A DNA stretch of 52,988 nt from the IMG/VR virus record IMGVR_UViG_3300046777_001138, positions 1 to 52,988 of that record; one strand, 5' to 3'. The translations under genes were made by a program, and so were the position numbers. The number at the start of each line of letters is the position of its first letter. The first letter of the stretch is position 1. Source of the DNA: a virus. Under the pieces are notes generated by a model, which worked only from the letters and a program-made list of their open reading frames with translations, was not told the origin of the DNA and searched no databases. This document shows positions 2,612-38,471 of this stretch, one piece after another.

Positions 2612-2747
2612 ATTGGGTTGTGCTGCCTTCGAGACTTTATTGGAAGCATTAAAGTGGAAGGTAGTACGCCGGGAAAAAGATCGTGTGATCATCGCTCGTA
2701 ACGATGAAGAGATGGAAGTAAAACTGAAGGAGGGAAATGATGAGTGA
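2601..2747 (+). CDS. Hypothetical protein, 48 aa
   Basis: Unrecognised small basic/acidic protein beginning MESELGCAAF. The start was chosen at the ATG preceded by GGAAAAGGAAG and overlaps the preceding gene by 11 bp. The longer in-frame reading from 2523 would overlap almost 90 bp and has no ribosome binding site. It ends 8 bp inside thyX. Confidence 0.6.
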   Translation: MESELGCAAFETLLEALKWKVVRREKDRVIIARNDEEMEVKLKEGNDE

Positions 2748-3540
2748 CACAGACATTACAGCTACGGTAGTAAAGGACTCTCTGAATGTAGACTATGGTT
2801 CAAGACTTACAACCATGATCATTAGATTCCCACGAGTAATACTAAGTCAGGTATTGACCCATCGTGTATTCAGCAGAAATACTAGCTCGTCAAGAGCTAT
2901 TCCTACGAGTAAGCTACTGAACAGGGAACCATGGATTCCTGACAAGGTTGGAGTCAACAAACCGGGTATGTCGGCGGATGAGTATCTGGAAGGCGAAACC
3001 CTTGAGCAATTCAGGGAGGATATTTACTTTTTGCATGAGGCAATGGTTGATGAGGTTGACAAGCTGGCAACCAAGTACAACATTCACAAGCAGACTCTTA
3101 ACCGTTACCTAGAGCCTTGGCTGATGACTACGATGCTCGTGTCATCTACCGAGTGGGACAACTGGTTTAATCTTCGTCTGAACCATAAAGCACAACCTGA
3201 GATTCAGGAACTCGCCGAGAAAATGGCCCATGCCAGAGCGATGAGTACGCCTGAAAAAGTATTGCCCGGTCACTGGCACATTCCATTTGAAGACTTTGGC
3301 GATCATCGTGCATTAGACATTGCTGTAGCACGATGCGCTAGGGTAAGCTATGAGACTCATGCCGGTGTTCGTGATCGTGAGGAAGACATTCGGTTGTTTG
3401 AACAACTGAAAGCGGACAAACACATGTCCCCGTTTGAACATGTGGCGTGTGCAAGGGCGCAAGAAGGCTACTACTTGTACCCTGAGGCAAACTTCAAGGG
3501 TTGGACACAATACAGAGCATTTGTGGAGGCAGGAGAGTGA
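2740..3540 (+). CDS. thyX: Flavin-dependent thymidylate synthase (ThyX-like)
   Basis: It would convert dUMP to dTMP using methylene-tetrahydrofolate and reduced FAD, supplying thymidylate for phage DNA synthesis. The signature region lies near residues 40-53 (LTHRVFSRNTSSSRAIP), a variant of the ThyX RHRxxSxNexSxR motif. The C-terminal part carries HMSPFEHVA, also typical of phage ThyX proteins. At 266 residues it has a usual length. The ATG at 2740 has GGAGG about seven bases upstream and overlaps the preceding gene. The neighbouring dCTP deaminase gene fits a nucleotide supply module. The first arginine of the classical motif is replaced by Thr-His, as in other divergent phage forms. Confidence 0.88.
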   Translation: MSDTDITATVVKDSLNVDYGSRLTTMIIRFPRVILSQVLTHRVFSRNTSSSRAIPTSKLLNREPWIPDKVGVNKPGMSADEYLEGETLEQFREDIYFLHEAMVDEVDKLATKYNIHKQTLNRYLEPWLMTTMLVSSTEWDNWFNLRLNHKAQPEIQELAEKMAHARAMSTPEKVLPGHWHIPFEDFGDHRALDIAVARCARVSYETHAGVRDREEDIRLFEQLKADKHMSPFEHVACARAQEGYYLYPEANFKGWTQYRAFVEAGE

Positions 3541-3779
3541 AAAAGGAGTTTAGGGACGATGAGGGTACAGTTTTTACTGTTGAAGAAAATTGGGACATGC
3601 ACTGGGTTGGTGCTTGGATTGAAATAAACAAGCCCCCACATTATTTTGTGGAAAAAGATGGCAAGTACATTTTAATGTTGCTGCCAGATGTAGCTAAGAA
3701 CTTTGCAAAAGAATTACTTATTATTTCGGATTCTATTGAAAGGAAAAGGGATGAGTATTCTCAGCGGAATGGCGATTAA
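3537..3779 (+). CDS. Small paralogous-family protein, 80 aa
   Basis: It starts at a GTG overlapping the thyX stop (GTGA), with GGAGGCAGGAG upstream. The C-terminus (LPDVAKNFAKELLIISDSIE) matches the ends of two other small proteins in this genome (14972-15163 and 43977-44159), so it belongs to a three-member family. The N-terminal half is a short beta-rich region. Function is unknown. Its 3' end overlaps dcd by 29 bp. Confidence 0.65.
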   Translation: MKKEFRDDEGTVFTVEENWDMHWVGAWIEINKPPHYFVEKDGKYILMLLPDVAKNFAKELLIISDSIERKRDEYSQRNGD

Positions 3780-4296
3780 GGAAGCGATTGCACGAGGTGA
3801 CATTGAGATCTCCGACTTCGATGAGTCTAGGCTCAATCCTCATTCGTATAATCTACGGCTTGGAAACAAAGTCTTGACATACTATGAGTCTATTTTGGAC
3901 TCTAGTAAAGAAGATCCATATATTACAGACGAATTACAAGCGGAAGGTTGTACGCTATGGCCCGGTACACTTTATCTTATGCACACCATGGAGACTGTGT
4001 GTTCACACAAGTATGTCCCTATCATTGATGGAAGGTCTTCAGTAGGTCGTCTAGGCATTGGGGTGCATATTACTGCTGGCTACGGTGATGTAGGATTCAA
4101 TGGAACCTACACGCTAGAGGTGACTGTAGTCAAACCAGTGATCGTCTACCCGGGTTCCGAGATCTGTCAGATTAGGTTCCAGACGCTGCAACTTGGTGAG
4201 AATGAAAAGGGGTATCCAAAGTATCAAGGCAAGTACAATGGTCAGACTGGCCCAAGAGCATCCGGTTGGTGGAAGGAGGCTCACAAATGGGGGTAA
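3751..4296 (+). CDS. dcd: dCTP deaminase / dUTPase family protein
   Basis: A 181-residue trimeric-dUTPase-fold protein. RLNPHSYNLRLG near residues 27-38, the catalytic DGRSSVGRLGIGVH block near 93-106, the tyrosine-glycine-aspartate turn at 111-113 and TLE near 121-123 are the dCTP deaminase hallmarks. In this family, arginine, serines and the glutamate bind and deaminate dCTP to dUTP. Together with ThyX it would route dCTP to dTTP. GAAAGGAAAAGG before the ATG at 3751 supports this start over an upstream in-frame ATG. A bifunctional deaminase-dUTPase is possible but cannot be decided here. Confidence 0.9.
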   Translation: MSILSGMAIKEAIARGDIEISDFDESRLNPHSYNLRLGNKVLTYYESILDSSKEDPYITDELQAEGCTLWPGTLYLMHTMETVCSHKYVPIIDGRSSVGRLGIGVHITAGYGDVGFNGTYTLEVTVVKPVIVYPGSEICQIRFQTLQLGENEKGYPKYQGKYNGQTGPRASGWWKEAHKWG

Positions 4297-4679
4297 CACT
4301 CAAAGATTCATTACCCCTGTGTGAAGTGCTTTCATATGCCAGCGATCCTTCCAATCCTGCTGACGCAGCATTGTTCATGGAAGGAGATAAAGTCGCTTTA
4401 CTTCTTATTGATGGCAATGGTGAAAGGACATGGCACGAGAAGAAGATTGCAGAGTTCTGGAATGCTGCACAGGATCAGGGATTGATGGCAATTGCGCTGA
4501 GTTACAATCACTATCAGGATGCTTGGCATTGGTTTGATTTTGATTGGAGTAGCCTTCCAGCAATGGATGTGAACCAAGAGACTCATATGGTAGAAATATG
4601 GTTCAAAGGATACTCGCCGACAAGTGAACTGTATGGTCACATTACTAGGAGGAGGAAGGAAAATGAAGGATCCAATTAA
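4287..4679 (+). CDS. Hypothetical protein, 130 aa
   Basis: Unrecognised. The start at 4287 has GGAGG seven bases upstream and overlaps the dcd gene by 10 bp. The product has a central acidic, aromatic stretch (YQDAWHWFDFDW) and an N-terminal alpha-beta pattern (GDKVALLLIDGNG). No membrane segment is visible. It overlaps the DUF3310 gene by 17 bp. Confidence 0.7.
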   Translation: MGVTLKDSLPLCEVLSYASDPSNPADAALFMEGDKVALLLIDGNGERTWHEKKIAEFWNAAQDQGLMAIALSYNHYQDAWHWFDFDWSSLPAMDVNQETHMVEIWFKGYSPTSELYGHITRRRKENEGSN

Positions 4680-5154: not shown

Positions 5155-5293
5155 ATGCTGTGTAATTACGGACGATTGCTACGATGTAGTGCAGGAGATA
5201 AGTCTGAAGTATCTCGGAGGATACAGAGGGGACACTCCTGCATTCGTTGATGTGTTTGTCCATGAACTGGAAGAAAAGAACAGGAAAGTCTAA
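4895..5293 (+). CDS. rusA: RusA-like Holliday junction resolvase
   Basis: A 132-residue RusA-family nuclease. PPPSTNNIWRR lies near residues 10-20, and GRDLDNLAKAICDLL near 71-85 carries the metal-binding aspartates and the conserved lysine. ITDDCYDV near 91-98 supplies the later acidic pair. The enzyme cuts Holliday junctions and branched replication intermediates, often before packaging. TAGGAG six bases before the ATG supports the start although it lies well inside the preceding frame. The stop overlaps the next start (TAATG). Confidence 0.92.
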   Translation: MPTHKFRLTPPPSTNNIWRRGKKGTYLAPHYRTWIDTHRPQVESVFGESTNPLSLARLEILVSGGTGLRRGRDLDNLAKAICDLLVRCCVITDDCYDVVQEISLKYLGGYRGDTPAFVDVFVHELEEKNRKV

Positions 5294-5595
5294 TGTCACG
5301 AAAGTTTACTTTTACCGTACCTCTTGTTCACGACAAGTCCTACGGATCACTTGAATTAACTCGACCAATTGGCAGTAAAACATGGTTGCCTTTGCCAACT
5401 GGTGGTTACATTTGTGTTGAGGTCCTTGGTACTGGAAGGACTCAGGCACAGATTAGATTTACTGCAGATAAGGATGTACCCATTATAAAAGGGGAATCAC
5501 TCAATAGGCCGAAATATGACATAAACGACTGGGGTGATGAGGAACGAATGATTGACGATAGGCATCCGGGTGATTTTGAAGACTATGTGAACTAA
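5293..5595 (+). CDS. CsrA/RsmA-like RNA-binding protein
   Basis: Residues 20-70 follow the CsrA pattern: LELTRPIGSKTWLPL resembles the beta-1/beta-2 region, VEVLGTGRTQAQIRFTADKD resembles beta-3/beta-4, and VPIIKGESL resembles the RNA-binding tail. CsrA dimers bind GGA motifs in mRNA leaders and block or stabilise translation. At 100 residues it is longer than the usual ~60: it adds about 19 residues at the N-terminus and a very acidic C-terminus (DWGDEERMIDDRHPGDFED). The key arginine of the VxREEI segment appears as lysine. It is coupled to rusA by TAATG. A chance beta-barrel similarity is the alternative. Confidence 0.65.
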   Translation: MSRKFTFTVPLVHDKSYGSLELTRPIGSKTWLPLPTGGYICVEVLGTGRTQAQIRFTADKDVPIIKGESLNRPKYDINDWGDEERMIDDRHPGDFEDYVN

Positions 5596-6116: not shown

Positions 6117-6925
6117 AACGCAAGGTCAACCCATACAGCGAATTTTTAGTGCCATGTTCCTCCATCGACAGGAGGATCTATGTCACTTCGTCGAATAATT
6201 TCCATGGGTTGATCAGTATGCTCGGCGCTGCTTGGGGCATCGCTGAGGAAGATCGTCAGGATCTGGCTGAGACTCTACTAGAAGAGATCTTCTTCTGTGG
6301 GTACGACTGGTATGACGACTTCTACCCGATCTTGTCAAAGATCAGGGTGATTGATATTAACGATTGGCTTGCTGGAACACGACCGTCCATTTTGTTCCCA
6401 AGCTATGATCCAGCAGTGTACTTTAATGGCCTGTCTGGAGGAGTCAATTATCGTCGGCGTTGGTGTCTGGATCAGTCGCAGTCCATGCGTATTGATCAGG
6501 TTGCTGAAATGGTTATTGCCCTATGGGGTGATGACTGTGTAGCCGATATGGGTGCTTACTGTGGATGGGATGCAATCCTAGTCCATAACCATGAGCGCCG
6601 GGTAATCATTGATGTTGCGATATTCCCTTGGAACTTGACCACAGGGGCTATACGCAAGGTCCACATAGCAGCACGGAAGATTCGTGCCATGCAGGGTATC
6701 CACAAAGCGTATGGGCTAGTACCCATTCAAATAGTTGATACCACCAACGGAATCTACTGGTCGCCGGCCCATGACATTGCGATAATGGATTCCGGGAAGA
6801 TCCTGATTACGGCATCAGGGTTACCTAGTGATGAAGAGGAATCGCTGGGAATAGAACTGAGTGAACTTCGTCCTCTTGGTGATTTGAACAGGTATTTTAA
6901 GGAGTTGAAGAATGTCAATGTTTAA
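6113..6925 (+). CDS. Hypothetical replication-region protein, 270 aa
   Basis: I do not recognise this family. It begins at a GTG overlapping the HNH stop by 4 bp and has no clear ribosome binding site, so the inserted HNH gene may have replaced its original leader. The middle contains GAYCGWDAILVHNHERRVII followed by DVAIFP. Scattered acidic and aromatic residues suggest an enzyme or DNA-processing accessory, but no motif is decisive. The 3' end overlaps the Sak4-like ATPase gene by 14 bp, so it probably belongs to the recombination module. Confidence 0.75.
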   Translation: MKRKVNPYSEFLVPCSSIDRRIYVTSSNNFHGLISMLGAAWGIAEEDRQDLAETLLEEIFFCGYDWYDDFYPILSKIRVIDINDWLAGTRPSILFPSYDPAVYFNGLSGGVNYRRRWCLDQSQSMRIDQVAEMVIALWGDDCVADMGAYCGWDAILVHNHERRVIIDVAIFPWNLTTGAIRKVHIAARKIRAMQGIHKAYGLVPIQIVDTTNGIYWSPAHDIAIMDSGKILITASGLPSDEEESLGIELSELRPLGDLNRYFKELKNVNV

Positions 6926-7895
6926 GAAGGCAGAGACAAAAGCGATCAAGCTGACGCTGGGAGTGATTGGACCCTCCGGAGCAGGTAAGACACTATCCAG
7001 CCTGAAGATGGCTCGGGGTCTTGTCGGCGAGAATGGTAAGATCGCATTCATCGGAACGGAAGGTGGAAAGGAGCAGCTTTACACCAATCACATCAAGAAT
7101 GGGTTTGACACGCTGACTATCTCAGCGCCATACACTATCGAGAAGTTGCAGGATGCACTTACAGGTGCTGTGGAAGGTGGCTATGACATCGTTGTCATTG
7201 ACAGCCTGTCCCACTTCTGGAGTGGTGACGGTGGCGCATTGTCTCAGGTCGATGAGATCGCTAGCGTAAACAATGGCAATAGCTCCGCTGGGTGGAACAT
7301 TGTCACGAAGAAGATTGACAAACTGATCAATCGTATTACCACCTTCCCTATCCACCTGATCCTTACTGTTCGTAGCGAGATCGTTTACGACTACAGCAAG
7401 GAACCCGGTCAGAAGATGAAGGTCACCAAGCTGGGTCTTACCCCTGTTTGGCGCAGTGGTAAGCAGTGTATTACTTACGAACTTGACAATGTGATGACGA
7501 TTTCGTCTGAGCATATCGCCAAGGTATCCAAGACTCGTCTGTTTGACATGGCTGACAAGATCTTCAATCGTCCTGATGAGAAGATTGGAGCCATGATCGG
7601 TGAGATCGTAAACACCGGAAACTACCTTGCCAAGCCTATCGGCGAAGCAGTAGAGAAGCAGGTTGAACCAGATCTTATTCCGACTGAGGAAGAGTCGGTA
7701 GCTGTCACTGAGAAGCAAAGGTCGCTGACCAAGCTGGAAGACTTGGCGATCAAGACTGGCCGTGACACTGGTACTTGGTTTGCACAGCTCGCTACTCACT
7801 TTGGTAAGAAGGTAATCACTGAAGTACCCAATACCAAACTGAAAGAGGTCATTGACAAGGTTACGGGTGACTTGGCGAAGAAGCAGACGGTCTAG
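6912..7895 (+). CDS. Sak4/RecA-like single-strand annealing ATPase (AAA)
   Basis: A 327-residue P-loop ATPase. Walker A is GPSGAGKT at residues 20-27, and Walker B is IVVIDSLSHFW near 93-103. A later SGWNIVTKKIDKLINRI segment and IHLILTVRSE follow the RecA-like core layout of phage Sak4 and AAA_24 proteins. Such proteins promote annealing and recombination during phage replication, usually with an SSB. The lysine/glutamate-rich C-terminus could be the partner-binding part. AAGGAG lies seven bases before the ATG. A strong intrinsic terminator follows within 15 bp, so this gene ends a transcription unit. Confidence 0.88.
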   Translation: MSMFKKAETKAIKLTLGVIGPSGAGKTLSSLKMARGLVGENGKIAFIGTEGGKEQLYTNHIKNGFDTLTISAPYTIEKLQDALTGAVEGGYDIVVIDSLSHFWSGDGGALSQVDEIASVNNGNSSAGWNIVTKKIDKLINRITTFPIHLILTVRSEIVYDYSKEPGQKMKVTKLGLTPVWRSGKQCITYELDNVMTISSEHIAKVSKTRLFDMADKIFNRPDEKIGAMIGEIVNTGNYLAKPIGEAVEKQVEPDLIPTEEESVAVTEKQRSLTKLEDLAIKTGRDTGTWFAQLATHFGKKVITEVPNTKLKEVIDKVTGDLAKKQTV

Positions 7896-7952: not shown

Positions 7953-8318
7953 ATGAAATTTGCTGAGATTATTCCGGGATTGTTGGAAGGTAAGAAATAT
8001 TGTAGAAAAGTTGTTAATGTAGTCTATATCTTGCAGCTTGGCACAGAAGGACTTGAGTTTGTATCAGATAATGAAATGTTTCGTTCTGATGTTGTAGAAG
8101 AAGAAGATTTGAAAGCGGAATGGCAAGAGTATTCAAAATGGAAAGAAGCCCCTTGGTATACTGCGGTTGAATTTTCACGCCGTAACCCTCATGTAAAAAT
8201 TCGCATAGGTGATTTTTACAAGAGTTGGAATGATTTTCATATAGGCGTTTCTCTTCAGTATTATCTGCAAAATCATGACCAGTGTACATGGTACATCCCA
8301 GCGGAGGATACCAAGTGA
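7953..8318 (+). CDS. Paralogous accessory protein (Tad2-like N-terminus), 121 aa
   Basis: The first half (FAEIIPGLLEGKKYCRK, then an acidic DLKAEWQEY end) recalls the short phage domain of the DUF2829 / Thoeris anti-defence 2 type, only distantly. The second half (WKEAPWYTAVEFSRRN to CTWYIPAE) is shared with proteins at 42452 and 51686, so it belongs to a dispersed family in this genome. GGAAGGAG eight bases upstream supports the start at 7953. It follows a terminator and is first in the primase operon. An anti-defence role is inference only. Confidence 0.7.
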   Translation: MKFAEIIPGLLEGKKYCRKVVNVVYILQLGTEGLEFVSDNEMFRSDVVEEEDLKAEWQEYSKWKEAPWYTAVEFSRRNPHVKIRIGDFYKSWNDFHIGVSLQYYLQNHDQCTWYIPAEDTK

Positions 8319-10087
8319 TCTCAGTAGAATCCCAGCTAGACCTTCTGAAGCGTAGATTCAAACACTTCACCAAGATCCGTGAAAAGGAGTATGTAGCCTC
8401 ATGTCCGGCTCACGGCGATAATAACCCATCCCTCTCCATCTCAGAGTCTGATTCTGGCAAGGTTCTACTCTATTGTTTTTCTCATGGATGCTCTGCAAAG
8501 AACATCGTAAAGAAGGCAGGTCTAGCCTTCAGTTCAATGGGAGAGATCGTAGAGAAGGATATTGGCCCAGATCTTACCGCTGAGGAAATGGAGCCCGTCA
8601 GTATCAAGCAGTATGATATCTTCGACTGGCCAGTAACCAAGGTCTACAACTACTCCGATGATGAGGGAAGTGTAGTCCTTAAAGTGACACGCAGGGATAG
8701 TGATCCTATCCTGCATGGAATCGAGAAGAAAGCCTTCTTCCAATCTACCAAGAATGACCAAGGAAAGTGGGTCAACAAGGTAGTATCAGGCACTGAGATA
8801 CCTCCCTACAATCTCGGTGACATTCTTTCCTCCACCAAGGATCAGACGATCTATGTGGTAGAGGGGGAGAAGGCCGCTGATATTCTCGGCGATGCTGATC
8901 GCCTGATCGTAACAACTAACCCCGGCGGTGCAGGACGATGGAGCAAGATCTCTTATCGTTTCAAACATGTATTCGCTGGGAGAAACATTGTTATCCTGCC
9001 TGATGCAGATGCAGTGGGACGATCCCACGCTATTGATATTGCATTGGACATGGAAGCAACAGGCGCCAAATCAATCAAGGTCGTTGACCTATGGCCCGGT
9101 GACAATGACGGGAAGGATATCGTTGACTGGCTAAAGGAGCATGAAGTTGATGAATTCCATGGAATTGTTCGTGATGCCAAAACCTTTCAACTGGATCCGA
9201 GTACCACGGGCTTTAGGCTCCCATGCGGGGCGAGCTTTGAGTCACTTGCTCATCCCGACATTGTACTACGAGGTCGTAACTTCCTTGTACCGGGATTGGT
9301 TTTGTCGGGCTCCCTCTGTGTACTGGCCGGTGGCGGGGGAGTGGGAAAGTCATCCCAATGCGGTCACTTGGCCGCAAGAGTCTCTCAGGGCAAGCGTGTA
9401 TTTGGCCTGCCTGCATCCGCCTACATCGACGGAGTACCCAAAGGAAATGTAATCTGGATCAGTAAGGAGGAAGGCGCTGAGACAGAGATTCTTCCCCGTC
9501 TAATCAGCGAGGGAGCAGCGCTAGAACGCATCTTCGTGCTGCGTGAGGGACATGTTGACTTGGACGACCCGGACTCGGTACGGGCCCTCCTATCCGCTAG
9601 GAAACCGAAACTGGTAATCCTAGATCCATTAACCAGTTATCTCAGCGGATCTGAGAATGAGAACCAAGGTATCCGTAAAACCTTGGAGCAACTTCTTCAG
9701 ATCACACAAGAACTTCAATTGGATACAGCCTATGTTGGTCTCGTCCACTTGAACAAGGGTGAAGGTACAGGGGTGAAGCAGGTCCTAGGATCTGTGGGTA
9801 TCCCGAACCTTTCACGATCTACGCTGATGATCACTAAGAACGAAGAGGAGCATTGCTCCGAGCTGAAGGTTGTTAAGTCGAACTTCAGATGTAACACAGG
9901 CACCCTCCGATTCACGATCAATTCGATGATGCCGGAGGAGGCAGAACGACGCATTAAGGCTTCGGGTGTAAGGATGGCTGGCAACACCCGGCGCATAACG
10001 CAAGGTTTTTCACAAGTTGATATCAAGGAATGGGTGGACTCGACTGTCGGGTCAGAGCCTGTATCTTTATCGAGTCAGCCATATTAG
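8315..10087 (+). CDS. Bifunctional DNA primase-helicase
   Basis: A 590-residue replication protein. A zinc ribbon near residues 30-59 (CPAHGDNNPS and CFSHGC) is followed by a TOPRIM domain (VVEGEKAAD with Glu near 183, then ILPDADAVG near 228-235). A RepA/DnaB-like helicase core follows, with Walker A AGGGGVGKSS near 338-347 and Walker B LVILDPLTSY near 433-442. It would unwind DNA at the fork and synthesise primers for the downstream family A polymerase. The start is a GTG that overlaps the upstream stop, with GGAGG seven bases before it. The whole layout matches primase-helicases of T7- and siphovirus-type replication modules. Confidence 0.92.
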   Translation: MISVESQLDLLKRRFKHFTKIREKEYVASCPAHGDNNPSLSISESDSGKVLLYCFSHGCSAKNIVKKAGLAFSSMGEIVEKDIGPDLTAEEMEPVSIKQYDIFDWPVTKVYNYSDDEGSVVLKVTRRDSDPILHGIEKKAFFQSTKNDQGKWVNKVVSGTEIPPYNLGDILSSTKDQTIYVVEGEKAADILGDADRLIVTTNPGGAGRWSKISYRFKHVFAGRNIVILPDADAVGRSHAIDIALDMEATGAKSIKVVDLWPGDNDGKDIVDWLKEHEVDEFHGIVRDAKTFQLDPSTTGFRLPCGASFESLAHPDIVLRGRNFLVPGLVLSGSLCVLAGGGGVGKSSQCGHLAARVSQGKRVFGLPASAYIDGVPKGNVIWISKEEGAETEILPRLISEGAALERIFVLREGHVDLDDPDSVRALLSARKPKLVILDPLTSYLSGSENENQGIRKTLEQLLQITQELQLDTAYVGLVHLNKGEGTGVKQVLGSVGIPNLSRSTLMITKNEEEHCSELKVVKSNFRCNTGTLRFTINSMMPEEAERRIKASGVRMAGNTRRITQGFSQVDIKEWVDSTVGSEPVSLSSQPY

Positions 10088-10095
10088 GAGTTGAA

Positions 10096-10644
10096 ATGAG
10101 TATTGCTATCGCTAAGGAAGTTGCTGTGCAGTTGTTGAGCAATGCACCTGCAACAGGAATTGAAAAGATCAAGATCGCTAAGGCGATCAAGGATAAACTT
10201 GGACTTCAGGATTGGGCTACGCCCTTTGGATATATCAAGAAGCTGGAGGAGGAAGGACAACTTCACAGCAAGGATTTCTGTTACCCCGGCGCAAAGCCTG
10301 TGTATACCCCGGGTGGTGGTGGGCAACGGTTCCCCAAGCCTAACATTGCCCCTGAGGCCATGGCCAAGTTCAAGCAACAAGTCTTGGATCATTTGGCTAC
10401 CAAGCCTGACGGCAAGGACTTTAAGGATATCCTTACCCGTACCGTCGAGACTCGTGCAGCAATGAATGCTGCTATTCAGGAGTTGAAGGAAGAAGGGAAG
10501 ATCGTCTTCGCTGGGAAAGACGATGCTGGTAGCTGGTACATCGCTCTTCGGCGTACTACCCGTACTCCTGCTGTTCCTGATCCAGTGGATCCCAGCCAGC
10601 CAAAAACTTCTGGGATGAAATCGCAAGATGACTTGCCTTTCTAG
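10096..10644 (+). CDS. Tandem winged-helix protein with SSB-like acidic tip
   Basis: A 182-residue protein with two similar helix-rich units: VAVQLLSNAPATGIEKIKIA and following, then FKQQVLDHLATKPDGKDFKD and following, each ending in a short beta-wing (HSKDFCYP; KIVFAGKDDAGSWYIA). This is the look of tandem winged-helix domains. The last residues, KSQDDLPF, match the acidic C-terminal tip of bacterial SSB (DDDIPF), which recruits repair and replication enzymes. It may therefore act as the phage ssDNA- or dsDNA-binding partner of the primase-helicase. AGGAG seven bases before the ATG at 10096 fixes the start. Confidence 0.75.
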   Translation: MSIAIAKEVAVQLLSNAPATGIEKIKIAKAIKDKLGLQDWATPFGYIKKLEEEGQLHSKDFCYPGAKPVYTPGGGGQRFPKPNIAPEAMAKFKQQVLDHLATKPDGKDFKDILTRTVETRAAMNAAIQELKEEGKIVFAGKDDAGSWYIALRRTTRTPAVPDPVDPSQPKTSGMKSQDDLPF

Positions 10645-10661
10645 GAAGTGGTGAGTAAGAT
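10633..10661 (+). promoter_or_regulatory. Candidate sigma-70-type promoter for the structured RNA
   Basis: TTGCCT and TAAGAT separated by 17 bases at the end of the winged-helix gene would start transcription just before the stem-loop region at 10.68 kb. The match to consensus is moderate. Confidence 0.4.
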
Positions 10662-10682
10662 AGTAGTGTCAAGAACATCTTG

Positions 10683-10917
10683 TCTGGGGAACCCGGACTG
10701 GCCCAGATGGACTTGATCGGAAAATCTAGCTTCCGTTACGCTAGATGTTTGCTGGTTGCTAACCAGAGTGAAGCAATCGTCTAACACTAGGACACCCCTT
10801 ATGATTAGGGGAAATAGAGGATGGCACCCTCTTTGCTTCAATTACTCACTCAGGCTACTTAACTCATTGTTTGCTCAATGGGCCAACCAGCGTGAACTAC
10901 TGAGTGGGTATCTTTTT
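10683..10917 (+). ncRNA. Candidate structured non-coding RNA, multi-stem
   Basis: No convincing gene lies here, but stems follow one another. TCTGGG/CCCAGA is at 10683-10707, with GGA in its loop. A perfect ATCTAGC/GCTAGAT is at 10724-10746, and CTGGTT/AACCAG is at 10752-10766. A three-way junction is closed by the perfect 8-bp TGAAGCAA/TTGCTTCA (10769-10776 with 10833-10840) and encloses CCCCT/AGGGG and AGAGG/CCTCT. An 11-bp stem, 10843-10853 with 10900-10910, holds an inner CATTG/CAATG hairpin and ends in TCTTTTT. This is the layout of a small RNA with its own terminator. GGA triplets are frequent, which would suit a CsrA-binding RNA. Confidence 0.6.
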
Positions 10918-11011
10918 ACGCTGTGGTAGGATGGGATGTTTTCATCATTTCCTGTCACTCCACATGGTTCTGCTGAAGGCGAAGGATGTCAAGCAGGATC
11001 TCCACAGCGTA
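10917..11011 (+). ncRNA. Second stem-bounded element with GGAUGU-like sites
   Basis: A perfect 10-bp stem TACGCTGTGG/CCACAGCGTA (10917-10926 with 11002-11011) encloses a mostly unpaired stretch. That stretch carries AGGATG, GGGATGT, AAGGATGT (10982-10989) and CAGGATC. AAGGATGT equals the core of the published CsrA SELEX consensus (ARGGAUGU). It may be part of the same transcript as the preceding stems if the first terminator is read through, or a leader of the 11098 gene. Confidence 0.45.
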
Positions 11012-11042
11012 CTAATTCCATCTGTTCGCTACCGATGGACCA

Positions 11043-11081
11043 GCCCTCACTAGCCAGCCTCCGGTTAGTGGGGGCCTTTTT
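11043..11081 (+). terminator. Intrinsic terminator before the 11098 gene
   Basis: Stem GCCCTCACTA with TAGTGGGGGC (11043-11052 with 11066-11075, one G-U pair), then CTTTTT. It lies 17 bp before the next gene, so it could also act as a leader attenuator. Confidence 0.8.
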
Positions 11082-11097
11082 GTATAAGGATGTGAGT

Positions 11098-11310
11098 ATG
11101 ACTATTAAGGAACTGCGTGATACTCTTAATGACCATATTGAAAATGGATATGGTAATGTGGATGTTCTTGCGAGAGATGTTTATGGGGATATACTTCCTA
11201 TAGATACGGAAGTTAATCCTACTACTGATCATGCAAGGGGAACTTATTTACTATTGGAAGGTAACGAAATAATATGGAATGGGGAATTGTTGCCTATTTC
11301 GCAAGTATGA
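11098..11310 (+). CDS. Hypothetical protein, 70 aa
   Basis: Short protein beginning MTIKELRDTLNDHIENGYGN, a pattern often seen in small phage proteins of unknown function (helix, then GNxDVLARD). The ATG at 11098 is preceded by AAGGATGTGAG, which is both a ribosome binding site and a match to the CsrA-type ARGGAUGU core. It lies just after an intrinsic terminator and the structured region, so translational control by the CsrA-like protein is conceivable. The longer reading from 10936 crosses the stem-loops and is rejected. Confidence 0.7.
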   Translation: MTIKELRDTLNDHIENGYGNVDVLARDVYGDILPIDTEVNPTTDHARGTYLLLEGNEIIWNGELLPISQV

Positions 11311-11923: not shown

Positions 11924-12120
11924 TGGATGTTCAAGAAGGCCAGTGGAAGAACCGATGTAAACACTGTGGAATACACTTTTATACACACGATTTCACAAAT
12001 CAATTATGTACTCCATGCAATAACGGCCTCTTCGATCTTATCGCTAGATACGGAGACAACGGGGCTTCAGCCGTTCCACGACAGCAAGATGCGTCTCCTA
12101 ACGATCAGGACAGACGCTGA
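11923..12120 (+). CDS. Out-of-frame zinc-ribbon-like reading at the polymerase 5' end
   Basis: A 65-codon frame overlaps the first ~65 codons of the polymerase gene. It encodes CKHCGIHFYTH then LCTPCNN, a CxxC...CxxC zinc-ribbon pattern. The ATG forms a TGATG junction with the upstream stop. The ribosome binding site spacing fits the polymerase start four bases later better. Either the locus is dual-coding or the cysteines are chance. I list it because the pattern is unusually clean. Confidence 0.3.
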   Translation: MDVQEGQWKNRCKHCGIHFYTHDFTNQLCTPCNNGLFDLIARYGDNGASAVPRQQDASPNDQDRR

Positions 12121-13696
12121 GGAAACCTTTGTCATTGACTGCTTTATGGTTGATCCTAGGCCAGTCTTAGAGGCTATTAGGCATAAGGTTGTAATCGCAC
12201 ACAATTGGGCCTTTGATGGCCCATTCCTGATCCAGCATGGGTTCGACTACGCTGCCAACTCTCTTCGTGATACGCTGATCGGGTCATTCTTGCTAAATGT
12301 AGGCTACAAGACTTCAAACAGCCTTGCCAGCGTGTTATCCATGCAACTCGGTATCGAGATGGATAAGGAGCACCAGAAGTCTGATTGGTCTGGTGCATTA
12401 ACAAAGGAGCAGCTTGATTACGCAGCGTTGGATGTTCAATATCTGATTCCTTTACATCAGAAGTTGGTCTGTCTTCTCAAAGAACAAAGGATGATGAAGA
12501 TATGGAGACTGGAACACAAGACTTTGAAAGCCGTTCTGTGGATGCGTATGAACGGTGTGGCAGTGGACCGGAACCGCTGGATCACCCTCTACAACCAAGC
12601 CATCTCCAAGCGTACCAGACTGGTTCAGGAACTGAAGGAGATGGTTCCACCGAGAACATTTGGGTCGCCGTATTCGTGGCGCAAGCCGACAGATATCAAA
12701 CAGGCGGCTGGTCGATTGGGGATCCCTCTGGAGAGTACCAACAAAGCCTCCCTAGCGTTGCTCGGTGATTATCCCTTCGTCAACAAGATTCAGGAATGGA
12801 GAAAGTGTGACCAAGTCATCAAAACTTTTGGACCAGATTGGTTGTCGTTTAGGGGCTCTGATGGACGAGTTCACGCTGAGTTCGTTCAGTGCCGTCCGGA
12901 GACTGGACGATTCAGTTGTAATAACCCTAACATGCAACAGATCCCAAGGGGATCCCACCGAAAATGTTTCGTGGCAGATGAAGGATGGTCAATTGTTAAA
13001 GCAGACTACTCCACCATCGAGTTAAGGATGGCAGCTAAACTAGCCAAGGAACCATCCATGCGTCAAGCATTCCTAGATAAGGAAGACTTGCATACCAAAA
13101 CCGCTAAGGATGCACTCGGCGTAGAGAAGCCTACCAAGGAAGATAGGACTCTGGCCAAGGCTTTGAACTTCGGCCTACTCTACGGTTGCGGTGCTAGTAC
13201 GCTGAGGACACAGCTTGCTGCTAACTGGGGTATGGTACTTCCGCTGGAAAAGGTTCAATTACTCAAGACCAAGTTCTTCAAGGCATATCGTGGGTTGAAG
13301 AAATGGCATAACAAGGTCAAACGAAAGAAGCCTACTACGATTAGGACTCCATGGGGCAGGATGCGATACAACCTGATTGACACGCAGGTTCAGGATAAGA
13401 AGACAAAGAAGTGGAAGACAAAGGAACCATTTACTCAGCGTGTGAACACACCAGTTCAGGCTACATCCGCTGATGGAATGAAACAAGCTATTGCTGATCT
13501 TTGGGATCAAAGGAATAAGTACCCAATTAAATTACTACTTGTAGTCCATGATGAAATTGTATTAACTTGTCCTGATTATTGTGCAACAGAAGTTGCAGAC
13601 TGGCTTAAGATGATAATGACAAAGGCGATGCAGCCTCTGCTAGGGGATATTCCTTGTGAGGTAGAAGCCACTATTGGAAAGACATGGGGTGGTTAG
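11927..13696 (+). CDS. polA: Family A DNA polymerase with 3'-5' exonuclease
   Basis: A 589-residue replicative polymerase. The exonuclease has DTETTGL (Asp41, Glu43), IAHNWAFD near 90-97 and YAALD (Tyr165, Asp169), so proofreading residues are intact. Polymerase motif A is KADYSTIELR (Asp360), motif B is RTLAKALNFGLLYG (Arg407, Lys411, Phe415) and motif C is VVHDEIVL (His541, Asp542). No 5'-3' nuclease domain is present, which is normal for phage forms. The residue matching E. coli Phe762 is phenylalanine. GAGG six bases upstream supports the ATG at 11927. It works with the primase-helicase upstream. Confidence 0.96.
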   Translation: MFKKASGRTDVNTVEYTFIHTISQINYVLHAITASSILSLDTETTGLQPFHDSKMRLLTIRTDAEETFVIDCFMVDPRPVLEAIRHKVVIAHNWAFDGPFLIQHGFDYAANSLRDTLIGSFLLNVGYKTSNSLASVLSMQLGIEMDKEHQKSDWSGALTKEQLDYAALDVQYLIPLHQKLVCLLKEQRMMKIWRLEHKTLKAVLWMRMNGVAVDRNRWITLYNQAISKRTRLVQELKEMVPPRTFGSPYSWRKPTDIKQAAGRLGIPLESTNKASLALLGDYPFVNKIQEWRKCDQVIKTFGPDWLSFRGSDGRVHAEFVQCRPETGRFSCNNPNMQQIPRGSHRKCFVADEGWSIVKADYSTIELRMAAKLAKEPSMRQAFLDKEDLHTKTAKDALGVEKPTKEDRTLAKALNFGLLYGCGASTLRTQLAANWGMVLPLEKVQLLKTKFFKAYRGLKKWHNKVKRKKPTTIRTPWGRMRYNLIDTQVQDKKTKKWKTKEPFTQRVNTPVQATSADGMKQAIADLWDQRNKYPIKLLLVVHDEIVLTCPDYCATEVADWLKMIMTKAMQPLLGDIPCEVEATIGKTWGG

Positions 13697-36977: not shown

Positions 36978-38471
36978 TTAGGTCTTTAGACCCTTAGCGC
37001 CCGGTTTAATTTTACCATTACATAATGATATCAAAGTCCTTAAAGCTAGTTCTAAACTATCCGGTCCATCGTCGTATCTAGCTGAAGGGAACATTTTTAG
37101 TTGGTCTACCAATAAAGCACCATATTGGTTTTTGACCACACGAATTCTTTTTTGCTCCAAAAATGGACCTAACCGCCGAATTCGTATTTCCTTCTTGATA
37201 ACATTATGCACTCCTTGCGTTACAAGCCTCATGTTTAACAAATCGCTTTTTTTCGACAGGTTGTTTAACAAAAGGCTCTGGAACGAGTTTGACTCGCATG
37301 TTATCATTGACGGATTGTACTTCTGTGACATTTCGATAACGGTGTCTACAATAGCTTCGGCGCTCATCCGGCTGATTATGGGGTTTGCTAAAACCGTATT
37401 ATCTCGTAATCGAGCCAGCAATGTAATAGCGCAATAATCTCCAAGTTTAGCTTCGTTGCCCTTGGAAGGGTCAATTGCGATTACACTCTCTACAATTTCT
37501 GACCTTTGGGGCCATTTATCTTCCCACCATATGTGATCTGCGAATAAATCTACCGGCCATTCAGTAGCACCCGGAGCAGTTGGGTTCTGTTGATATAAAG
37601 CCTCAAACTCTCTCGTACCAAGGCTCGTCTTTATCTGCTCAAGCGCCTGAGCATCATACTTGGTAGGCCATAGAGCCTCTCCAATGGCCCTAGGATCGTC
37701 TTTATGGTTCTCACCCGTAGCAATCGCTGGCAGACACAGATACTCGAACTGGTCAGCGTTCTTCTCCATCAGCTGGGTCTGAAGAACAGCGCCGACAAGA
37801 TCCTCCGGGTTCCACCGGGTCATCACGATCAGGATCCGGGCATCCTTTTCAGCACGAGTTCTAAAAGTGGATTTATACCAATTTAGTATGTTTTCCCTGA
37901 TTGTAGGTGAGTCAGCGTCAGCACGGTTCCTGATCGGATCGTCCACGATCAGCCACTGACCGCCCATACCAGTAATCGAACCACCAACACCGGCTGAACG
38001 ATAAAAGCCTCTTTTTCCAACCATTTCAAACAAGTCAGAAGTTCGTGTATATCTTTCTGACACAGCCCCACGGCCGCCCTGACCTTCTGCTAATCTAGAA
38101 TCAGGGAATAAACGCTTGAATTCTTCTGAACATATATATTTCTGCACATCGTTGTTTATTCTACTAGACAATTCGCTGGAGTAGGAACAGGCCATTACCC
38201 CAGTATCCGGGTTCCTACCAAGGATGTAAGAAGGCAAAAGACGACTGATAAGTTCGGATTTACCATGCCGTGGAGGCATTGACACACATAAACGCCGAAG
38301 ATGGTTAGGATCTTCCAGCGGAAGGAACATCCGTTCGATATTGTCAATGATTACTTGATGATGCCACGAACATTCGAATTGTGGAAATACATACTCAGCG
38401 TAATGTTTGAAGCTAGTCCTAGCGTTTTCACGCTTGGCTAGTTCGTTGATCATCATGTCCAGTTCGTTCAT
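36978..38471 (-). CDS. terL: Terminase large subunit
   Basis: A 497-residue packaging motor. The ATPase has SMPPRHGKSELISR near residues 64-77 (Walker A), WLIVDDPIRNR near 173-183 (Walker B) and a following MTRWNPEDL coupling motif. The nuclease domain begins with VIAIDPSKGNEAKLGDYCAI, its first metal-binding aspartate near residue 334, and ends with a D-x-x-DS-like block (YDDGPDSLELALR). It overlaps the small subunit gene by 44 bp. Confidence 0.96.
   Translation of the reverse strand: MNELDMMINELAKRENARTSFKHYAEYVFPQFECSWHHQVIIDNIERMFLPLEDPNHLRRLCVSMPPRHGKSELISRLLPSYILGRNPDTGVMACSYSSELSSRINNDVQKYICSEEFKRLFPDSRLAEGQGGRGAVSERYTRTSDLFEMVGKRGFYRSAGVGGSITGMGGQWLIVDDPIRNRADADSPTIRENILNWYKSTFRTRAEKDARILIVMTRWNPEDLVGAVLQTQLMEKNADQFEYLCLPAIATGENHKDDPRAIGEALWPTKYDAQALEQIKTSLGTREFEALYQQNPTAPGATEWPVDLFADHIWWEDKWPQRSEIVESVIAIDPSKGNEAKLGDYCAITLLARLRDNTVLANPIISRMSAEAIVDTVIEMSQKYNPSMITCESNSFQSLLLNNLSKKSDLLNMRLVTQGVHNVIKKEIRIRRLGPFLEQKRIRVVKNQYGALLVDQLKMFPSARYDDGPDSLELALRTLISLCNGKIKPGAKGLKT

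Follow-up and report, generated by a model that had tools for sequence, protein, structure and literature searches.

Organization of the non-coding locus

The window analysed here is the whole 52,988-nt stretch of the viral record IMGVR_UViG_3300046777_001138, from a phage known from metagenome data alone. Its replication and nucleotide genes include those for ThyX (2737–3540), a RecA-like AAA_24 protein (6912–7895), a primase-helicase (8282–10087) and a family A DNA polymerase (11927–13696). Two adjacent genes (930–1493 and 1484–2020) code for proteins with sigma-70 region 4 (46.4 and 27.8 bits), and the phage may thus use its own promoters. The 204-aa product of the gene at 10030–10644 is weakly similar to winged-helix proteins and ends in an acidic tail like that of SSB (DDLPF); the relatives of the window phage have a similar gene at the equivalent place.

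The region between this gene and the one starting at 11098 had been described as gene-free, and this is borne out: no conserved ORF was found in 10644–11098, and the genes 3′ of the region vary among relatives. Folding and comparison give good support to the interpretation of 10656–11081 (+ strand) as a conserved and structured composite non-coding RNA cassette, in which a degenerate tRNA-like cloverleaf is followed by a 10-bp hairpin module, a three-way junction and an intrinsic terminator (Table 1). The 442-nt RNA folds at −160.7 kcal/mol, better than 100 of 100 dinucleotide-preserving shuffles (z = −4.0). The original prediction proposed covariation in homologous phages as a check on its stems, and the stems do covary across relatives. 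The viral relatives, designated here by L numbers, all come from metagenomic contigs; many are fragments and several belong to one clade.

Table 1. Features of the RNA cassette and the putative CsrA-like gene of the window.
Feature	Coordinates	Strand	Basis and remarks
Putative divergent CsrA-domain protein	5293–5595	+	Profile comparison; kept in all window-group phages examined
−10-like box, TAAGAT	10656–10661	+	Directly 3′ of upstream stop codon; TATGAT, TATAAT or TATAGT at the equivalent spot in relatives
5′ stem-loops, specific to the window	10668–10766	+	Folding, comparison
tRNA-like cloverleaf, degenerate	10769–10840	+	7-relative alignment, 95% of cells paired
Hairpin module, 10-bp stem ACTCACTCAG/CTGAGTGGGT, conserved GTGAACT within	10844–10909	+	Comparison of relatives
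CyVA-1-like three-way junction	10917–11011	+	Rfam RF02965 match; covariation in 12 phage sequences
P1	10918–10926/11002–11010	+	Helix of CyVA-1-like junction
P2	10929–10937/10954–10961	+	Helix of CyVA-1-like junction
P3	10966–10974/10992–11000	+	Helix of CyVA-1-like junction
Kissing loop arm 1, CATCATTT, in P2 loop	10943–10950	+	Covaries with 10981–10988
Kissing loop arm 2, GAAGGATG, in P3 loop	10981–10988	+	Covaries with 10943–10950; takes in most of AAGGATGT
Small hairpin 5′ of terminator	11017–11039	+	Folding; like hairpin (TTACCG..CGGTA) in L004, L005, L014 and L043
Intrinsic terminator, 13-bp stem and CTTTTT	11043–11081	+	Terminator search

Relatives also have a −10-like box immediately 3′ of the upstream gene. 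Because no sigma-70 consensus promoter was found for the cassette, this box is a weak promoter candidate. The stretch that matches the window-specific 5′ stem-loops is a second tRNA-like element in L002 and only a short hairpin in L004, L005, L014 and L043. The whole window has no Rfam match at gathering score, and BLAST comparison of the region and three of its elements with 50,697 phage records returned chance-level pieces only. Sub-threshold Rfam matches to mir-34, a snoRNA, a toxic sRNA and Plastid-ycf2 antisense were dismissed as chance.

The tRNA-like and hairpin modules

A three-way junction closed by an 8-bp helix had been predicted in the region; the 8-bp closure (TGAAGCAA/TTGCTTCA) is real but belongs to the tRNA-type cloverleaf. 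This cloverleaf has the T-loop ATGGCAC in place of a TTCRA T-loop, a D-loop without the GG of tRNAs, no U33 and no CCA. Both ARAGORN and Rfam call its homologues in L002 and L004 as tRNAs, and ARAGORN also calls that of L005, while neither program calls the window copy or those of L009 and L043. The altered T-loop and the D-loop without GG are common to four phages (the window phage, L009, L014 and L043). In the alignment the D-loop 19/T-loop 56 pair is G-C in canonical copies and reversed to C-G in altered ones, a swap that would keep the elbow contact and may have been a single event. All ten pairs of the adjoining hairpin are retained in 7/7 relatives, with both sides changed at four pairs.

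The homology to elements that score as tRNAs, together with the degenerate loops of the window copy, could be accounted for by a decaying phage tRNA cluster, in which former tRNA genes and their spacers still fold, are followed by a terminator and have no function. Such decay would not be expected to preserve the altered loops, kept here in four phages, nor the compensatory changes that maintain the hairpin and the CyVA-1-like helices, and we regard it as highly improbable.

A CyVA-1-like three-way junction

The perfect 10-bp stem of the original prediction (10917/11011) is real; it is helix P1 of a second, three-way junction, and its pairs show covariation. Under permissive settings the Rfam model of CyVA-1 (RF02965) gives one strong match in the window, to 10924–11007 over the full model (1–77; 29.4 bits, E = 1.8e-4), a score below the curated gathering score of 41.4. 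The P1-P2-P3 consensus structure of RF02965 and its conserved loop letters GUUUU and GAAGGNGAA..GUCA are present in the window copy. Patterns derived from the loops recover the core element in many viral contigs and in acidobacterial chromosomes; viral record L070 scores 54.6 bits for RF02965, over the cut-off, L024 scores 41.0, and other virus records 24.7–37.2. The homology also holds in the reverse direction, in that a covariance model built from 12 phage sequences only (R1) matches the acidobacterial CyVA-1 loci L084 (E = 3.5e-11) and L077 (E = 3.2e-7), as well as each CyVA-1-bearing record tried. By this comparison of sequence and structure, the three-way junction is distantly homologous to CyVA-1, to our knowledge an orphan bacterial RNA class without an assigned function.

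Matches are present in 3 of 149 sampled Acidobacteria genomes (the sample includes the centre genome itself), and the acidobacterial chromosomal copies lie at unrelated intergenic locations. Pattern matches without the stem and kissing complementarity were dismissed as chance, as were L081, L082 and L099; the L081 genome has no RF02965 match.

The two loops of the core pair as an 8-bp kissing helix, NNNNNUUU with GAANNNNN. Across P1, P2, P3 and the kissing helix in the 12 phage sequences, 95.5% of cells are paired and 19 pairs are changed on both sides, with a covariation score of 0.486; shuffled alignments score 0.146 and slid ones no more than 0.12. For 26 phage and acidobacterial sequences, 97% of kissing-helix cells are paired, and the kissing helix and P3 together score 0.759 against 0.218 when shuffled; some elements of both alignments were chosen partly by stem and loop complementarity. 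Because of this selection the pairing was retested on an unselected set, made up of the window copy and every match to a pattern that ignores loop 2. All 16 distinct elements, the window's own among them, carry the complementary 5-mer, with four or more of the five positions paired, and nine different 5-mers are represented. Random 5-mers reach this level in 20% of cases, and among 218 swapped pairs 54 do. The GAU/GUC part of P2 is invariant across phage-type elements, an invariance that the search pattern partly imposed for some matches; covariation therefore lends no support to this part of P2, and it could be a binding site instead of a stem.

The covarying 8-bp complementarity might also, or instead, act between molecules to give dimers or larger assemblies. 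Precedent comes from two tRNA-adjacent phage RNAs, GOLLD and ROOL, whose assembly is mediated by kissing loops (PMC12286853). The window has no Rfam match to the GOLLD or ROOL models, and intramolecular pairing is favoured by the position of the two loops on neighbouring arms of a single junction; an oligomeric RNA seems to us most improbable.

Relatives and genomic settings

In the window-phage relatives L004, L005, L009, L014 and L043 the core lies 3′ of the tRNA-like and hairpin module; the L002 contig has this module and stops short of the core. L043 (minus strand) has an extra structured module of ~110 nt between hairpin and core, with GCCAGCG..TTGGCTGGC and a TTCGATT loop, and the end of L002 begins with the same sequence. 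This module is possibly a second tRNA-like element, although ARAGORN makes no tRNA call on it. Elsewhere the core occurs alone at unrelated sites: before a structural-region gene, after an HNH gene, or in the loop of a terminator hairpin. The last arrangement is seen in L157, L158, L160, L161 and L162 (two of these records being ~205 kb), where the core is within a terminator-like hairpin loop with A-rich and U-rich flanks. A normal tRNA-Met(CAT) is located at 2460–2536 of L024, ~400 bp upstream of the CyVA-1-like element. The 63.6-kb record L070, with its above-threshold CyVA-1, has a group I intron match just over the cut-off (3608–3881; 50.1 bits) and another under it (4110–4313; 38.1 bits).

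The position of the element directly upstream of the 11098 gene raises the question of a cis-acting leader or attenuator. Several phages have the element right before a gene or as a terminator stem itself, and in some jumbo-phage copies P1 and a U-run form a terminator ahead of the next gene. In the window, however, a strong terminator separates the element from 11098, and the gene 3′ of the element differs among the window, L004, L005, L009 and L014; a cis-acting role is in our judgement very unlikely. Since the downstream genes change from phage to phage, as does the genome position of the element, the RNA probably acts in trans.

GGA triplets and a CsrA-like protein

The original prediction likened the region to CsrB/RsmY-type sponge RNAs on the basis of 14 GGA triplets, several of them in loops. 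The count stands (13 in 10644–11085 and one more at 11088), but the enrichment is weak: 13 compares with 8.9±2.0 in dinucleotide shuffles (P = 0.035), a number attained by 18% of + strand stretches of equal size. The placement in loops is mostly wrong, as a single GGA (10984) is mostly unpaired in the fold (unpaired values 0.99, 0.55 and 1.0), and it is located in the kissing helix. Two copies of AAGGATGT were noted and are present, at 10982 and 11086, but the word also occurs at 5470, at 38220 and once on the minus strand. The 11086 copy does lie over the ribosome binding site of the 11098 gene and is an ordinary Shine-Dalgarno sequence 7 nt before the ATG; the copy at 10982 falls in variable kissing-loop bases, where relatives show GTGCG, TGGTG, TGGCG and others. 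The only conserved GGA of the core is in the invariant GGGAUG of the phage-type P2, which folding puts in a stem, and GGGAUGU is kept by phage-type elements and absent from bacterial-type ones. No conserved accessible GGA was found in the cassettes of relatives, and the cassette has neither multiple GGA triplets in apical loops nor sponge-type GGA sites conserved between relatives. With its triplets mostly paired and barely enriched, and AAGGATGT at 10982 in variable bases, the sponge reading is unsupported.

The second component of the predicted Csr circuit, a CsrA-like protein, fares better. The 5293 product scores 14.9 bits against Pfam CsrA, below the 27-bit cut-off, and profile comparison with hhalign aligns it with CsrA over 48 columns (P = 2.3e-6, probability 89%, 33% identity); every orthologue has R or K at the position of CsrA Arg44. 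An AlphaFold model is mostly strands, with a mean pLDDT of 46.8 that is too poor for a fold search. The product is plausibly a divergent CsrA. Searches of viral contigs with window-type CsrA-like proteins returned only the already-known phages. CsrA-family genes are present in 7 of 15 RNA-bearing virus records (about three lineages, with three of the records over the cut-off), compared with 2 of 50 control virus records, both weak and none over the cut-off; this co-occurrence, uncorrected for relatedness or host, is suggestive. The csrA rate among phages in a published survey is 1.2% (PMC7366521).

A Csr circuit, in which the RNA titrates CsrA of the host or the CsrA-like protein of the phage, either as a CsrB/RsmY-like sponge or through a single high-affinity site, would draw on the 5293 gene, the co-occurrence and the retention of GGGAUGU in phage-type elements. 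The paired and unconserved GGA triplets speak against it, as do the failure to detect CsrA in six acidobacterial genomes bearing CyVA-1 and the several RNA-bearing virus records also without CsrA; furthermore, CsrA may follow the host and not the RNA. We consider such a circuit unlikely, with the 5293 protein a possible partner of the RNA. A more specific and doubtful proposal is that a CyVA-1-class kissing-loop RNA and a CsrA-family protein have come together independently in several phage lineages, with CsrA bound by P2 at its fixed GGGAUGU/CCUGUCA face. If true, this would be a Csr circuit on a different RNA architecture, without repeated GGA loops, and a phage-encoded RNA-protein regulatory pair.

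Proposed function and comparison with known systems

We favour, as the probable interpretation, that 10656–11081 is one transcription unit and yields a trans-acting, protein-binding phage RNA taken from a bacterial RNA class. The single transcript would carry the tRNA-like part, the hairpin, the CyVA-1-like kissing-loop junction and the terminator. The tRNA-like part would probably recruit tRNA-processing enzymes (RNase P/Z), trimming or protecting the RNA, and the rigid CyVA-1-like fold is a putative protein-binding platform. In an infected cell, an RNA-binding protein may be engaged or titrated through this platform; the phage's own CsrA-like protein is one candidate. Comparison establishes the core's homology to CyVA-1, the pattern of the terminator, and the stems with their kissing pairing; as CyVA-1 has no function known to us, the rest of this picture is inferred.

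Many phage records, of 13 to 205 kb, contain CyVA-1-class RNA with a strongly covarying loop-loop pairing, which places this orphan bacterial class in a viral context, enlarges its alignment and offers a hypothesis on its partner that can be tested. In being joined to a degenerate tRNA-like element, the RNA is a further member of the small set of phage RNAs found together with such elements.

Among known systems, CsrB/CsrC and RsmX/Y/Z resemble the cassette in having many GGA triplets and an intrinsic terminator, with a CsrA-like gene in the same phage. They differ in that the window triplets are mostly paired, unconserved and not repeated in apical loops, and the cassette has no Rfam match to these RNAs. 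With phage tRNA genes and pseudo-tRNAs it shares the cloverleaf, and relatives pass tRNA detectors, whereas the window copy has altered T- and D-loops, no U33 or CCA, and a place inside a larger terminated RNA. GOLLD and ROOL are likewise phage-borne structured RNAs with kissing loops and a tRNA-like neighbour; the window RNA is smaller and has no sequence or model match to them. CyVA-1 is matched in the helix order P1, P2, P3, the GUUUU..UUUCC and GAAGGMGAANNNNNUCA loops and the reciprocal model matches. The window copy departs from that class in its sub-cut-off score, and the phage-type P2 has a fixed GGGAUG/CCUGUCA where CyVA-1 has a plain stem; it is also phage-borne, in a cassette with a tRNA-like element and a hairpin.
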